Below, one piece after another: positions 50,722 to 56,080 of a DNA stretch of 64,000 bases; positions within the stretch are counted from its first letter, which is position 1, and the number at the start of each line of letters is the position of its first letter. The stretch comes from Peristeroidobacter agariperforans (lineage in GTDB: Bacteria > Pseudomonadota > Gammaproteobacteria > Steroidobacterales > Steroidobacteraceae), in assembly GCF_004138335.1 (NCBI RefSeq), contig NZ_RYFW01000001.1, forward strand, positions 2,811,244 to 2,875,243, in the 5' to 3' direction. Under the pieces are notes generated by a model that was not told the DNA's origin, made no database searches, and was given only the letters and a program-made list of their open reading frames with translations. The position numbers and the translations under genes were made by a program.

Positions 50722-52251
50722 ATGTCATCGGCCCCCACGCATCAGTCGCTCTGGATGAACGTCACGCTGCCGGAATTTCCGGCGCTACAGCGGGACATCG
50801 ATGTCGACGTGCTGATCGTCGGGGCGGGCGTCACAGGTATCACGACGGCCTATCTCCTGGGCCAGGAAGGCGTTCGCGTCGCGTTGATCGAGCGCGAAAA
50901 AGTCGCCAGTGCGGACTCGGCGCGCACGACTGCACATCTCACCTACGTAACTGACGAACGTCTGCATCACCTGGCAGGTAAATTTGGGGTGGAAGCGGCG
51001 CGTAAGTTCTGGGAAGGCGGTATCGTCGCGATCGATGCCATCGAGCGCATCACCGAGGAGATCGGCAGTGACGCCGAGTTCGTGCGCGTGCCGGGATATT
51101 TGCACGCTCGCATCGGTCAGCCATTGGATCCCAAGGATGTCGAGGGGCTGCGCAAGGACGCCGAGCTGGCGCAGTCATTCGGCATCGACGCCACTTTTGC
51201 CGACCGCACCGCTTACAGCAACATGCCTGGCGTGCGCTTTGCGCAGCAGGCGAAGTTTCATCCGCGTCGGTATCTCGCAGGCCTGTTGACTGTGATCCAG
51301 CAGCAAGGCGGCCTGGTGTTCGAGAACACCGCGTTCGAGTCGGTGGATGACGGCGACCCGATGACGGCGCACGCGAACGGACACAAGATCCGTTGCAAGT
51401 ATCTGGTCATCGCCACTCACAATCCCCGGATGGGCAAGAAGGGTGCGGTGACCGCGACCCTGTTTCAAACCAAGCTCGCGCTCTATACGAGTTATGTGCT
51501 CGGTGCTCGCGTGCCAGACGGTGCGGTGCCCGAGGGCGTGTATTGGGATACCGGCGATCCGTATGAGTACCTGCGCATCGAGCAGCGCGACGATCATCAG
51601 TACGCAATCTTCGGCGGCCAGGACGTCAAGACCGGGCAGGAAGACGATCCCGAGCGTGTGTTCGACCGATTGACCGCGCGCTTGCGTGAGGTGCTGCCGC
51701 AGGCGCAGGTCGAGCGGCGCTGGCTGGGTCAAGTCGTCGAAACAGATGATGGCATGCCTTTCATCGGCGAGAACGAGGAACGGGAGTTCGTTGCGACCGG
51801 CTTCAGTGGCAACGGTTGGACGCTCGGCACGCTGAGCGCGCTAATGGCGCGGGATCGATTCCTCGGCCGCGACAACCCGTGGCGCAGCCTGCTCGCCGTC
51901 GGACGCTCGCCATTCCATGGCGGCGCATGGCGGTACGTGCAAGAGAATGCCGACTTCCCCTATTATTTCGTGCGTGACCGGTTGCGACGGCCCGAGCTCG
52001 ATTCGCCCGACCAGGTGGGCAGGGGCGAAGGCCGGATCGTCAGCTATCAAAGCAAGAAAGTCGCCGCGTATCGCGACGACTCGGGCCAGTTGACGTTGTT
52101 GGCGCCTCAATGCACGCACCTGAAATGTCTGGTCAAATGGAACAGTGCAGACCGCACTTGGGATTGTCCTTGCCATGGCTCGCGCTTCCGCCCGACCGGC
52201 GAAGTGCTGGGCGGGCCGGCAGAACAGCCCTTGAAGCGGTTGCATGAGTAG
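50722..52251 (+). CDS. FAD-dependent oxidoreductase (DAO family) with C-terminal Rieske domain
   Basis: 509 residues. FAD site LIVGAGVTGITTAYLLGQEG, DAO-type core, and FSGNGWTLGTLSALMA near the FAD tail. The last 75 residues are a Rieske 2Fe-2S domain with C464, H466, C482, H485 in CTHLKC and CPCHGSRF. Proteins of this build are known as FAD-Rieske fusions (YhfW-like); substrate unknown, probably an amine or amino acid. Overlaps the next gene by 8 bp. Confidence 0.9.
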   Translation: MSSAPTHQSLWMNVTLPEFPALQRDIDVDVLIVGAGVTGITTAYLLGQEGVRVALIEREKVASADSARTTAHLTYVTDERLHHLAGKFGVEAARKFWEGGIVAIDAIERITEEIGSDAEFVRVPGYLHARIGQPLDPKDVEGLRKDAELAQSFGIDATFADRTAYSNMPGVRFAQQAKFHPRRYLAGLLTVIQQQGGLVFENTAFESVDDGDPMTAHANGHKIRCKYLVIATHNPRMGKKGAVTATLFQTKLALYTSYVLGARVPDGAVPEGVYWDTGDPYEYLRIEQRDDHQYAIFGGQDVKTGQEDDPERVFDRLTARLREVLPQAQVERRWLGQVVETDDGMPFIGENEEREFVATGFSGNGWTLGTLSALMARDRFLGRDNPWRSLLAVGRSPFHGGAWRYVQENADFPYYFVRDRLRRPELDSPDQVGRGEGRIVSYQSKKVAAYRDDSGQLTLLAPQCTHLKCLVKWNSADRTWDCPCHGSRFRPTGEVLGGPAEQPLKRLHE

Positions 52252-53563
52252 AGCGAAGGACGAATACGACGTCATCGTCGTAGGAGCGGGTGCAGCGGGC
52301 CTGGCAGCGGCTGCGCATCTCAGTCGCAACGGCAAATCCGTTTGCGTTCTCGAAGCGCGCGATCGCATCGGCGGTCGCATTCTCACCGTGCGTCCGCGCG
52401 GCGCGGCGATTCCGCTGGAGCTCGGCGCCGAATTCATCCATGGAGAATCGCCGGCAATCTTCGAGCAGTTGCGCTTGGCCGGTGACGTCGCGGTCGACAC
52501 CGTGCAGACGCGCTATCGCGTGCCGCAGCCCGGTCGGATGAAACGCAGCGAAGATTTATTCGAAACCATGAAGCAGCGGCTGGAGCGCATTCCCAAGCCG
52601 CGCGTCGATCTGCCGTTCGCCGAGTTCCTGGAGAAACATCGACGGCAGTTGTCGCCGACGGTCCGGGCGTTTGCCACCATGCTGGTGGAAGGGTTCGACG
52701 CTGCCGACTCGACCCGGGCGAGCGCCATCGAAATATTGAAGGAATGGGCCGGCGGAAGTGCAGCGGATGCGCCGACGTTCCGGCCGCAGCGAGGCTATGG
52801 CGCGTTGATGGATTCGCTGGCCGGTAGTCTCGATCCTGCGAAGACGTGTGTGCAGTTGGAATGTGCGGTCCATGAGGTGCGCTGGCGACGTGGCGAGGTC
52901 AACGTTTCGTACAGTCGGCATGGAGAGCCCGGCGCTGTCCGCGCGGCTCGAGCGATCATCACGTTGCCGCTATCGGTGTTGCAGCTGCCGGCAATGACGC
53001 CCGGAAGTGTTCTGTTTACCCCCACGTTGCCGCGGCGGCAGGTGCCGCTGTCGCGGTTGTTGATGGGGCCGGTGGTGAAGTTGGTGCTGTGTTTCTCCAG
53101 ACCGTTCTGGTCGGAGATCGACGAAGGCCGGCATCGTGATGTCGCGTTCTTCCATGCGCAGGGCGCACCGTTCCCGACGTTCTGGACGACGCTGCCGGTG
53201 CGAGCGCCGGTAATCACGGCGTGGAGTGGTGGGCCGAAAGCAGCGCAGCTCCTTTCGCGAAGTACGGACGAAGTTCTGCGGGCGGCGTTGTCGAGTGTGA
53301 CGGAGATATTCGGCAAGCGGCGCGATTATCGGAAGATGCTCGAAGCGGTCTATTGGCACGATTGGCAGAGCGATCCGTATTCGAGCGGTGCTTACAGTTA
53401 CTCAGGCGTCGGCGGCGGCCCGGCTAAAAAGCAGTTGGCGAAATCGGTGGAGCAAACCTTGTTTTTCGCGGGCGAGGCGCTGGATGTAGAGGAGTCCTCG
53501 AGCGTGGGCGGCGCACTAAGCACCGGACAGAGAGCGGCGAAGGAGCTACTGAACGGCTCATAG
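52244..53563 (+). CDS. Flavin-containing amine oxidase
   Basis: 439 residues. VVGAGAAGLAAAAHLSRNGKSVCVLEARDRIGGRI binds FAD; LGAEFIHGE and the C-terminal FFAGEALDVEESSSVGGALSTGQRAA complete the monoamine-oxidase fold. No signal peptide. Substrate not predictable. Coupled to the FAD-Rieske gene, suggesting the two act in one pathway. Confidence 0.92.
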   Translation: MSRAKDEYDVIVVGAGAAGLAAAAHLSRNGKSVCVLEARDRIGGRILTVRPRGAAIPLELGAEFIHGESPAIFEQLRLAGDVAVDTVQTRYRVPQPGRMKRSEDLFETMKQRLERIPKPRVDLPFAEFLEKHRRQLSPTVRAFATMLVEGFDAADSTRASAIEILKEWAGGSAADAPTFRPQRGYGALMDSLAGSLDPAKTCVQLECAVHEVRWRRGEVNVSYSRHGEPGAVRAARAIITLPLSVLQLPAMTPGSVLFTPTLPRRQVPLSRLLMGPVVKLVLCFSRPFWSEIDEGRHRDVAFFHAQGAPFPTFWTTLPVRAPVITAWSGGPKAAQLLSRSTDEVLRAALSSVTEIFGKRRDYRKMLEAVYWHDWQSDPYSSGAYSYSGVGGGPAKKQLAKSVEQTLFFAGEALDVEESSSVGGALSTGQRAAKELLNGS

Positions 53564-53590: not shown

Positions 53591-54709
53591 TTATTCGTTG
53601 TCCTCAGATTCGTCCTCTTCTTCTTGCTTCTCATCCTCACTGAACCGATTGGTAAACCGGGCGTTTCCCAGCCCGGTGCCGATCGTGAGCGCGCCCCAGT
53701 GCTCGTACTCGCGCATCATCGGCACCTCGCTGAGTCCCTGCACGACCGCGTCGTTGTGCATCACGATGACGGTTTCGTGATCGCCGATCTTGGGAATGGC
53801 GGCGCACAGTTTCTCCGGCAGGTTGAAACTCTTGTGCTCCCAATCGCCCGGCAAGTTCTGGCCGCCGCGCTCGATCGAGCCATCCGCGTCAATCACGCCC
53901 GGGCAGCCGATGCCGATGAACGGCGCCAGATTCGCCCCTTCTTTCTCGGCCCGCTTGATCAGCCCGATCAACATATCGATCAGGCGCTGGACGGCGTCTT
54001 CGCGCTCCGGCTCGTCGTCGCGGTGACGCCAGAGCTCGAAGTGCTTGACCGCGGCCTGTGAAAGGTCCGCGCTCTTCCTGCGTCGAAGCTCGACGATTCC
54101 GGCGCGGATATTCGTGCCGCCGATATCGACGGCGAGGATGCTGTCATGCCCCGTCAGGATCCATGACGGCACCAGCTGGATGCAGCCGATCAATCCCGCA
54201 TGGTCGGAGTGATTGCGAATCGGCTTGATGTCCAGATCGATGCCGTCGGCCTTGAGCAGCACCGAGGTGCGACCGATCGCCAGCTCGCCGATGCGACTGG
54301 TGCGGAAGCCGCCGCCGATCACCAGGGCTTCGGTGTCTTTCCAGTCCTTCAGTTTCAGGAAGCGCCGGATGACCTGAGCGAATTCCTGCGCGAATTCCTC
54401 GATCGCGCCGTGAATCACGCCGGCGGCTTCGGCGTCGCCCTCGACCAGTAGTTTGTCGAGTTGTTTCTTACCGATTTGTTCGCTAGGCGCGTCGCCCAGC
54501 GGATCGTCCCCAGCGCGGCTGACTCGATCGCGCCAATCGTCCAGGATGGCCTGGAAGGCGCGGCGACTGGCGCGATCGCCGAGGAAACCCTCGGGGCTGC
54601 GCATCTCCGCGTTGTAAGCATCTACGGTCACCAGGCTCAACACCTTGCCGCCATGGGCAAGCAGCGGCGTTGGCGTCTCGTCGGTCTTCTTCGCGGTCTT
54701 CTTGGCCAT
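53591..54709 (-). CDS. ROK-family kinase-like protein with circularly permuted domain order
   Basis: 372 residues. Normal ROK sugar kinases begin with the ATP-binding DIGGT motif and end with IGGG and a GDAGLxGAA segment. Here the order is reversed. Residues about 37-180 match the usual C-terminal half: SPEGFLGDRASRRAF, LVEGDAEAAGVIH, ALVIGGG (128-134), NHSDHAGLIGCIQL (166-179). Then a linker leads to the usual N-terminal half: LAVDIGGTNIRAGI (192-205), IGIGCPGVIDADGS (265-278), catalytic aspartate D320 in VMHNDAVVQG, LTIGTGLGNA (341-350). The ROK zinc-binding His/Cys loop is missing, at the point where the chain has been cut. It ends in an acidic tail (357-372). ATG 54709 (MAKKTAKK) chosen. 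Glucokinase-like activity is possible but unproven. Confidence 0.85.
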   Translation of the reverse strand: MAKKTAKKTDETPTPLLAHGGKVLSLVTVDAYNAEMRSPEGFLGDRASRRAFQAILDDWRDRVSRAGDDPLGDAPSEQIGKKQLDKLLVEGDAEAAGVIHGAIEEFAQEFAQVIRRFLKLKDWKDTEALVIGGGFRTSRIGELAIGRTSVLLKADGIDLDIKPIRNHSDHAGLIGCIQLVPSWILTGHDSILAVDIGGTNIRAGIVELRRRKSADLSQAAVKHFELWRHRDDEPEREDAVQRLIDMLIGLIKRAEKEGANLAPFIGIGCPGVIDADGSIERGGQNLPGDWEHKSFNLPEKLCAAIPKIGDHETVIVMHNDAVVQGLSEVPMMREYEHWGALTIGTGLGNARFTNRFSEDEKQEEEDESEDNE

Positions 54710-54791
54710 CCAGTAATGCTCGAATCCAGCTCGTGTAAAGCAAACACGCGGCGCGGCATTACGTTCCCGCGAGAATGGTTGTTGCTGACTT

Positions 54792-55892
54792 CTACACGCC
54801 GATGCGCGCCCCTTGATCGGGCAGGTTGCTGAGTTTGGTGGCCAGCTCGAAACGCAAGCCCTCCGGCGCGTAGCACAGGCTGACTTTGCCGCCAAAGTCA
54901 TCGGCCAGCACTTGTTCGATCAGCCGCGAGCCGAAGCCGCGGCGCTCAGGAGGCGCAACTCGAGGTCCGCCCGATTCGGTCCAGCGCAGCCGCAAACATT
55001 GGTCGCCGTTGATCGGCTCGAGCCGCCAGCGCACCGTGACTTCGCCGCCGGCCATGGACAACGCGCCATACTTCATCGAGTTGGTGGCGAGCTCGTGTAT
55101 CGCCATGCTCAGCGAGAGCGCCTGGCGCGCCGACAGATTCACCGGCGGCCCCTGTGCGCATATTTCACCCGGCGCGGTGCTGTGTGGAAGCAGCGCGCCT
55201 TCTATGATCGCCGCCATCGGCGCGCTGATCCAGCTCGACTGCGTCAGTACGATGTGAGCCTGACCGAGCGCTTTGAGGCGGCGAGCGAAGGTGACGCGCG
55301 CTTCATCGAGCGAGGTTGCTGCACGGAACGTTTGATCGAAGATGGAGTTGACGATGGCGAGCGTGTTCTGGATGCGATGGGCCAGTTCCGCGTTGATCAA
55401 TCTCGCCTGTTGTTGCGCTTGCACCTTCGACGTCGTTTCGATCACCGTGTCCAGCATGCCGGCGATGCGACCATCGTCGTCGCGGATCGGGCTGTAGCAG
55501 AACGTGAAGTATGCCTGCTCCAGACGGCCGCCGCGGTGGATGACGAGCGGATAATCCTCGATGAACGTAGGCTCGCCTCCATATGCGCGCTCCACGAGGG
55601 GCTCGATCATGTGCCACGCTTCCGCCCACACCACCTCGAAGGGTTGCCCGATCGCAGGCGGCTTGTTGCCGAGGATCGGCAAAAAAGCATCGTTGTGAAT
55701 CGTGATGTGTTGTGGACCCCACAACAGACACTGCGGGAACGCGGAATCGAGAATGGCGCCGACCACGGTGCGCAGGGAGTGCGACCAGCCATCGATCGGT
55801 CCGAGCGGAGTGCGGGCCCAGTCCAAGCGTCGAACGGCCTGCCCGCAGGCGCTGTGGCCAAGGAATAGATGCAGGGCGTCCGTCATCGTCAT
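54792..55892 (-). CDS. HWE-family sensor histidine kinase with PAS domain
   Basis: 366 residues, no membrane segment. A PAS-like domain (about 50-155; FLPILGNKPPAIGQPFEVVW...YFTFCYSPIRDDDGRIAGMLD) precedes the HWE-type phosphoacceptor region ELAHRIQNTLAIVNSIF and an HATPase with HELATNSMKYGAL, LRWTESGG (the W-x-E of HWE kinases) and RGFGSRLIEQ. Two close starts exist (55892 and 55886); the first has AGGA 8 bp upstream. It lies divergent to an ECF sigma gene and 82 bp upstream of the ROK gene on the same strand. No response regulator is adjacent. Confidence 0.88.
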   Translation of the reverse strand: MTMTDALHLFLGHSACGQAVRRLDWARTPLGPIDGWSHSLRTVVGAILDSAFPQCLLWGPQHITIHNDAFLPILGNKPPAIGQPFEVVWAEAWHMIEPLVERAYGGEPTFIEDYPLVIHRGGRLEQAYFTFCYSPIRDDDGRIAGMLDTVIETTSKVQAQQQARLINAELAHRIQNTLAIVNSIFDQTFRAATSLDEARVTFARRLKALGQAHIVLTQSSWISAPMAAIIEGALLPHSTAPGEICAQGPPVNLSARQALSLSMAIHELATNSMKYGALSMAGGEVTVRWRLEPINGDQCLRLRWTESGGPRVAPPERRGFGSRLIEQVLADDFGGKVSLCYAPEGLRFELATKLSNLPDQGARIGV

Positions 55893-56080
55893 GCGCACCG
55901 TCCTGAAGATGCGGAGCGGGGCTGTCGTTGGAATAGAGCGACGCTCTAGCGCGTTCAATTCGTGGTGTGGGCAATTGTTCCCGGATTGCCGCGCAACCGT
56001 CACGAAACCGTCAAACGCCTGACTTACTCTGGCGCGCCCGCAACGTGGGTGTAGTGGCAATTGGGGTTCGTGGCGAAGCG

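Follow-up and report, generated by a model that had tools for sequence, protein, structure and literature searches.

A circularly permuted ROK-like kinase gene, with an EcfG-type promoter-like element, in Peristeroidobacter agariperforans

The DNA analysed here (the window) is a stretch of 64,000 nucleotides of Peristeroidobacter agariperforans, positions 2,811,244 to 2,875,243 of contig NZ_RYFW01000001.1. One minus-strand open reading frame of this window (53594-54709 without its stop codon) encodes a protein of 372 amino acids starting from an ATG at 54709. Along this protein the segments GDAEAAGVIH (residues 91-100), IGGG (131-134) and HSDHAGLIG (167-175) come first, followed by DIGGT, the aspartate D320 and GTGLG (Table 1), and a charged tail closes the protein 24 residues beyond GTGLG. 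The frame is open from as far upstream as 54901, which would give 436 amino acids, and we favour the ATG at 54709 because of the start positions in relatives and the promoter-like element listed in Table 1. Upstream of the gene and on the same strand lies a gene for an HWE histidine kinase (54792-56060); such a gene lies 1.2 to 2.2 kb from the permuted gene in five Steroidobacter-group neighbourhoods, with two of these being the same contig. On the plus strand, at 50722-53563, there is a gene for an FAD oxidoreductase with a C-terminal Rieske domain, overlapping a flavin amine oxidase gene by 8 bases; relatives of the oxidoreductase occur at about 7 kb or less from the permuted gene in eight neighbourhoods, of which two are again the same contig.

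Table 1. Features of the permuted ROK-like gene and its upstream region (window coordinates; residues refer to the 372-residue protein)
Feature	Coordinates	Strand	Basis
Permuted ROK-like kinase gene, 372 aa, stop included	53591..54709	-	ORF; homologues
Residues 1-76, without ROK counterpart by profile-profile comparison; invariant H19, G44, D45	54482..54709	-	half test, alignment
Residues 77-178, ROK C-terminal part (helix, GGG, D-x-x-GLIG)	54176..54481	-	profile tests, alignment, phmmer
GGG 132-134, invariant	54308..54316	-	38-row alignment
Residues 179-188, new join from native C terminus to native N terminus	54146..54175	-	inferred from alignment
Residues 189-349, ROK N-terminal part	53663..54145	-	Pfam, phmmer, profile tests, alignment
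DIGGT 195-199, phosphate loop 1	54113..54127	-	D195, G197, G198, N200 invariant in 38 rows; position 199 T or S
D320, predicted catalytic base, HND motif	53750..53752	-	invariant in 38 rows
GTGLG 344-348, phosphate loop 2	53666..53680	-	invariant in 38 rows
Residues 355-372, charged low-confidence tail, variable across the family	53594..53647	-	relatives, AlphaFold2 model
EcfG-type promoter-like element GGAAC-N16-TGTT, 33 nt 5' of the ATG	54743..54767	-	upstream scan

The original prediction, made from the letters of the window, was that the protein carries the segments of a ROK-family kinase in rotated order, and three kinds of profile comparison bear this out. A permuted set of 38 distinct rows was compared with a canonical set of 30 sequences, the latter obtained from 32 ROK loci of whole genomes after L069 and L078, which had been read on the wrong strand, had been dropped. 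The permuted set excludes L025, L026 and L027, which repeat L049, the window and L003, and two of the 15 loci confirmed by the genome scan described below were kept out of the alignments, L013 for a run of N and L015 for a broken frame. Against the unrotated ROK profile, hhalign returned two local alignments, scoring 84.1 (query 188-345 on ROK 2-135) and 53.8 (74-178 on 200-297). Upon rotation of ROK after GTGxG these gave way to a single collinear alignment that scored 129.0 over 232 columns, with 23% identity to ROK. When the point of rotation was moved in 5-column steps, the score stayed at 129.0 for all cuts tried between columns 135 and 195 and was lower elsewhere. Both profiles were also split in halves and all four pairings scored, with 60 column shuffles for each. 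The N-terminal half scored 54.7 against the C-terminal part of ROK (shuffles: mean 13.2, maximum 20.6) and 15.9 against the N-terminal part, which is within the null (maximum 18.6), while the C-terminal half scored 81.9 against the ROK N-terminal part (maximum 20.6) and 17.5, again within the null, against the C-terminal part (maximum 21.9).

The third comparison was the one that the original prediction had itself proposed, namely a hidden Markov model of ROK with its halves exchanged. With the ROK alignment cut at 138 and the best single domain taken as the score, the rotated model outscored the native one in all 38 permuted proteins (medians 31.5 vs 15.3 bits) and in none of the 30 canonical ROKs (212.6 vs 402.7). 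Two other rotations gave medians of 25.5 and 26.6 on the permuted proteins, and 38 shuffled proteins produced no score above zero with either model, the rotated one being ahead in 7 of them. We thus regard the circular permutation of a ROK kinase as established at the level of sequence: in the alignments the native C-terminal lobe stands first and the native N-terminal lobe second, with a new link of about 10 residues between them.

The break had been predicted to fall at the zinc-binding loop of ROK, and this holds in so far as it lies in or next to that segment; its exact placing fails, as ROK positions 137 to about 179 have no detectable counterpart. The C-terminal half stops at ROK profile position 137 and the N-terminal half resumes at about 179; between these positions ROK carries the GExGH motif, the zinc loop and the strand that follows GTGxG. 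When columns 9-95 of the permuted family were compared with ROK 131-216, the score was 11.6, inside the range of 40 shuffles (mean 9.7, maximum 14.6), and in three relatives a Pfam ROK match reaches into residues 1-76, from the AS of GDxAS (ROK position 179). The alignments thus place the new chain ends at the segment of the GExGH motif and zinc loop. The predicted loss of the zinc ligands was confirmed: the CxCGxxGC motif is found in 0 of 38 permuted members, while a slightly looser pattern, CxCGxx[GA]C, is found in 27 of 30 canonical ROKs, and a cysteine occurs within the N-terminal 100 or so residues of just 4 of the 38 members, one in each. A GExGH-type motif is likewise present in 0/38 members vs 28/30 canonical ROKs. 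As two substrate-side motifs are missing in all 38 members, the substrate may differ and sugar-kinase activity is not assured.

Fifteen distinct loci were confirmed in a scan of GTDB species genomes, which was the only search to cover phyla beyond Pseudomonadota, and they belong to Steroidobacter and its relatives, Acetobacteraceae, Tardiphaga, Roseomonas, Xanthobacteraceae and other Proteobacteria. The permuted gene was found in 22 of 398 genomes of the phylum Pseudomonadota, in 2 of 369 of the class (by single-sequence search) and in 3 of 100 of the family. Plasmid records with a homologue number 206 (111 named Rhizobium and 79 Sinorhizobium), where, among the rows listed, the product is called 'ROK family protein', once 'glucokinase', and sometimes 'hypothetical protein' or nothing at all; phage records gave no homologue match. 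The family is widespread in bacteria yet unstudied. A rapidly built tree of 46 rows (rooted at the midpoint, with 13 of 43 inner branches weak) has the Steroidobacter group next to Acetobacteraceae within the alphaproteobacterial rows and places five further rows from the window's class elsewhere, a topology that suggests gene transfer between classes. Two genomes hold two permuted copies each (L097 and L098 in G664, L100 and L101 in G648), with an EcfG-type element on L098 and L100 only. On a Bradyrhizobium barranii plasmid (L059:6001-6366) there is a partial relative covering residues 228-352 at 37% identity, with no full-length gene annotated there, which is probably a decayed piece. As for the locus tag of the Sinorhizobium gene, SMb20484 was considered and rejected, since excerpts of two papers give this tag to the SupA transporter; no paper was found for the candidates SMb20464-66, and the pSymB record has no features there.

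No constant partner gene or operon was found in 49 neighbourhoods, and the context varies by lineage. Steroidobacter neighbourhoods contain FAD oxidoreductases, and Rhizobium and Shinella records contain otsB (trehalose-phosphatase). In 4 of the 49 neighbourhoods (L052, L058, L060 and L105) the midpoints of otsB and the permuted gene are about 1.1 kb or less apart, and in L011 otsB lies 5.7 kb away. Sinorhizobium has an osmoprotectant-system peptidase as neighbour. In ten neighbourhoods (nine of genus g385 and one of g456) a gene read as rplU lies within about 1 kb, or 5 kb in one case.

The element upstream of the window's gene conforms to GGAAC-N16/17-[CT]GTT, which we take to be the consensus of EcfG-type (general stress) promoters. 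In the 47 distinct upstream regions (49 loci minus one without an anchor and one duplicate) this pattern occurs 16 times, against 47 of 6190 background windows (0.8%), a comparison in which related loci share ancestry, so that the counts are not independent. The elements come from several lineages, at offsets of 88 to 158 in a 240-base region ending near the start codon. Among them are those at L001, L003, L005 and L007, while L002, L004 and L014, which are closely related to the window, carry a variant form that does not match the pattern. PhyR-NepR-EcfG is a stress system known from Alphaproteobacteria. The window's genome, Steroidobacter-like and gammaproteobacterial by kin, has a PhyR-NepR-sigma set, its NepR being matched at E 1e-13; PhyR, NepR, an ECF sigma factor and a HisKA_2/HWE kinase stand side by side at L119:6874-10543 (G000:C9:1506873-1510542). 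NepR was found in 7 of 8 genomes of the window's genus and in 0 of the 92 other sampled genomes of the family. As the permuted gene is present in just 2 of these 8, the regulator can occur without it. Among the sampled genomes of the phylum, NepR is found in 16 of the 22 carriers vs 73 of 376 other genomes, where both figures are taken as coming from the same draw of 398, as its size and handles agree, and where shared ancestry again makes the counts non-independent.

On the one hand, these observations make stress control of the window's gene plausible to likely, and EcfG, the sigma factor of the general stress response, probably activates many members of the family, including this one. On the other hand, the pattern is missing from 31 of the 47 upstream regions, and it might be argued that the protein is an active kinase with a housekeeping role, the GGAAC elements being leftovers of particular lineages. 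That none of the ten copies near the rplU-like gene has the element, and that six of the 22 carriers lack NepR, would fit such a role. It is rather doubtful, in our opinion, given the enrichment over background in several lineages, the offsets at which the elements lie and the PhyR-NepR-sigma set in the window's own genome. Of 7 loci whose genomes gave no NepR match at E 1e-6, none has the element.

The original suggestion that the fold could still be active, all elements of the ATP site being kept, is supported by the alignment, in which D195, G197, G198, N200, P270, G271, N285, N319, D320, G344-G348 and G132-G134 are invariant across the 38 rows. DIGGS replaces DIGGT in part of the rows. Invariant in the new N-terminal segment are H19 and G44-D45. 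We assume that the invariant residues hold ATP and the catalytic base by the ROK mechanism, and because they are invariant, the protein is likely an active kinase. The side of the ROK pocket that GExGH and the residues following the zinc loop presumably form is, in turn, replaced in the permuted family. Together with tails that are charged and variable and a metabolic partner gene that is not constant, the loss of GExGH and of the zinc motif in every member might also indicate a permuted ROK fold that has lost kinase function and acts instead as a nucleotide-gated sensor or partner-binding protein. Such a pseudokinase seems unlikely to us, since HND320, QN285LPG and both phosphate loops are invariant in the 38 rows, and an inactive enzyme would have no need of them. 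Moreover, Pfam detects no DNA-binding domain in the window's protein (up to E 10 it reports just ROK and a sub-threshold Hexokinase_1), nor the winged helix of ROK repressors of the NagC/Mlc type. An active kinase is thus the reading that we retain, although probably not the glucokinase of its genome, as the latter holds three full-length canonical ROKs.

Searches with single sequences are less telling for the N-terminal half. The Pfam ROK family (PF00480) matches residues 192-350 with profile positions 2-137 of 294 at 30.1 bits (cut-off 22.9; in a six-frame search the permuted gene scores 23.1), and the NCBIfam BglK model matches residues 98-177 with positions 210-282 of 291. In phmmer, staphylococcal NanK (6q26) aligns in two pieces, 192-356 on 4-145 and 94-178 on 204-286, with an overall E of 0.013, the second piece scoring just 0.4 bits by itself. 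It could be assumed, then, that nothing is permuted and that the N-terminal lobe of ROK has been fused to an unrelated N-terminal domain, and whether the N-terminal half belongs to another family was checked with Pfam on ten N-terminal halves of the family. Seven have no PF00480 match: five, including the window's own, are blank, and two gave solely other family names, at E 0.033 to 0.36. A profile search of the PDB with the N-terminal half found no match at E 1. The remaining three halves match the C-terminal end of PF00480, from profile position 179 to 291 or 292, at E 4.8e-4, 0.0066 and 0.17, all under the family cut-off, and one of them also has an equally weak KfrA_N match (E 0.15). These three matches, the score of the N-terminal half far above all shuffles against the ROK C-terminal part and within the null against the N-terminal part, the collinear rotated alignment of 232 columns and the preference of all 38 proteins for the rotated model make a fusion very improbable.

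AlphaFold2, run with 14 rows and no templates, produced a compact model (mean pLDDT 85.3, pTM 0.83), whose best PDB match in Foldseek was human ManNAc kinase 2yhy (167 columns, 2.3 A, E 4.6e-5; the aligned residues were not specified). This alignment covers less than half of the model, which is what one would expect of a sequential aligner faced with a permutant. Residues 17-190 folded alone reached pLDDT 72.8 and pTM 0.73; the top Foldseek match of this model was a ROK GlcNAc kinase (88 columns, 2.8 A, probability 0.99) at a non-significant E of 0.24, and the next ranks mixed other ROK and hexokinase entries with unrelated ones, none significant. Finally, an artefact of the gene model or assembly (a frameshift or rearranged assembly), to which the longer frame open from 54901 and the cut gene in 2 of 49 neighbourhoods (L013 and L015) might point, is refuted by independent genomes, as the other 47 neighbourhoods, from many genera and sequencing projects and with L003 and L115 being the same contig, have a single ORF of at least 355 amino acids that clusters with the window's protein.

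Taken together, the best explanation, to which we assign a probability of about two in three, is that the gene encodes an active, often stress-induced, permuted ROK-fold kinase. In this scenario, the chain would fold into the usual two-lobed actin-like kinase, where DIGGT, GTGLG and GGG would bind Mg-ATP, D320 would activate a substrate hydroxyl as in ROK kinases, and the altered end segment, with its invariant H19 and G44-D45, would reshape the substrate pocket. Because of this reshaping, the protein probably acts on a hexose, or a compound derived from one, that differs from the substrates of canonical ROKs. The stress promoter and the otsB and osmoprotectant genes adjacent in some Rhizobiaceae suggest a role in osmolyte or trehalose-related sugar metabolism. 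A more far-reaching account is tentative, and we would not expect it to hold in every part: a permutation within the actin-fold (ASKHA) sugar kinases may have given rise to a separate widespread clade, in which the zinc/GExGH site was replaced by a new one around the new N terminus. Members of this clade would have passed between Alpha- and Gammaproteobacteria, and their role in the general stress response would be to phosphorylate a sugar that is related to osmolytes and is not a substrate of any canonical ROK.

These findings bear on how such genes are named. Profile matches that name ROK proteins ignore the order of segments, and here a whole clade under the ROK name has exchanged its lobes and lost substrate-side motifs, so that naming its members ROK kinases or glucokinases is unsafe. 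The clade is also a natural experiment on how a kinase that closes its two lobes about a hinge copes with new chain ends at the substrate site, and it provides an unstudied candidate gene for the general stress response in rhizobia and their relatives. We found no description of a permuted ROK kinase in the open-licence papers searched, including excerpts of PMC1079889, PMC1976428, PMC2213659 and PMC7701253, and a report elsewhere is possible; searches for ROK together with otsB, osmoprotectants or general stress returned general papers only.

Several known systems may be compared with this family. Circularly permuted ATP-grasp proteins are a natural permutant kept as a family of its own, with a fold unrelated to ROK. 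Presumably, ADP-dependent glucokinase and 2-keto-3-deoxygluconokinase have a ribokinase-like fold, unlike ROK. According to an excerpt of PMC2213659, these two differ by a segment swap between sugar kinases, which resembles our case in that sugar kinases are related by a changed segment order and differs from it in being a small swap rather than a rotation of whole halves. The name of the permuted ATP-grasp proteins appears in a table of PMC7701253, and an excerpt of PMC1079889 states that circular permutation of the nucleotide-binding core may distinguish kinase families of the same fold group. Among solved structures, the first relative is staphylococcal NanK/glucokinase 6q26 by phmmer, at its weak E, and human ManNAc kinase 2yhy by profile search and Foldseek, with a likewise weak sequence E of 0.0051; both have the canonical order, and just a part of each aligns to the permuted protein per pass. 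NCBIfam gives weak matches to several ROK subfamilies without singling out a nearest one: BglK (NF042998) and ROK glucokinase TIGR00744 score 18.4 and 23 bits against cut-offs of 550 and 260.35, so the permuted protein is a member of neither. With canonical ROKs (PF00480) it shares both lobes by profile, a score over the gathering threshold, DxGGT, the catalytic Asp of the ND motif, GTGxG and GGG; it differs from them in its swapped lobes and in having neither CxCGxxGC nor GExGH. Because of its lobe order and these two motifs it should not be filed as a canonical ROK and, as far as its sequence tells, it is a relative with permuted lobes whose mode of action is probably the same.
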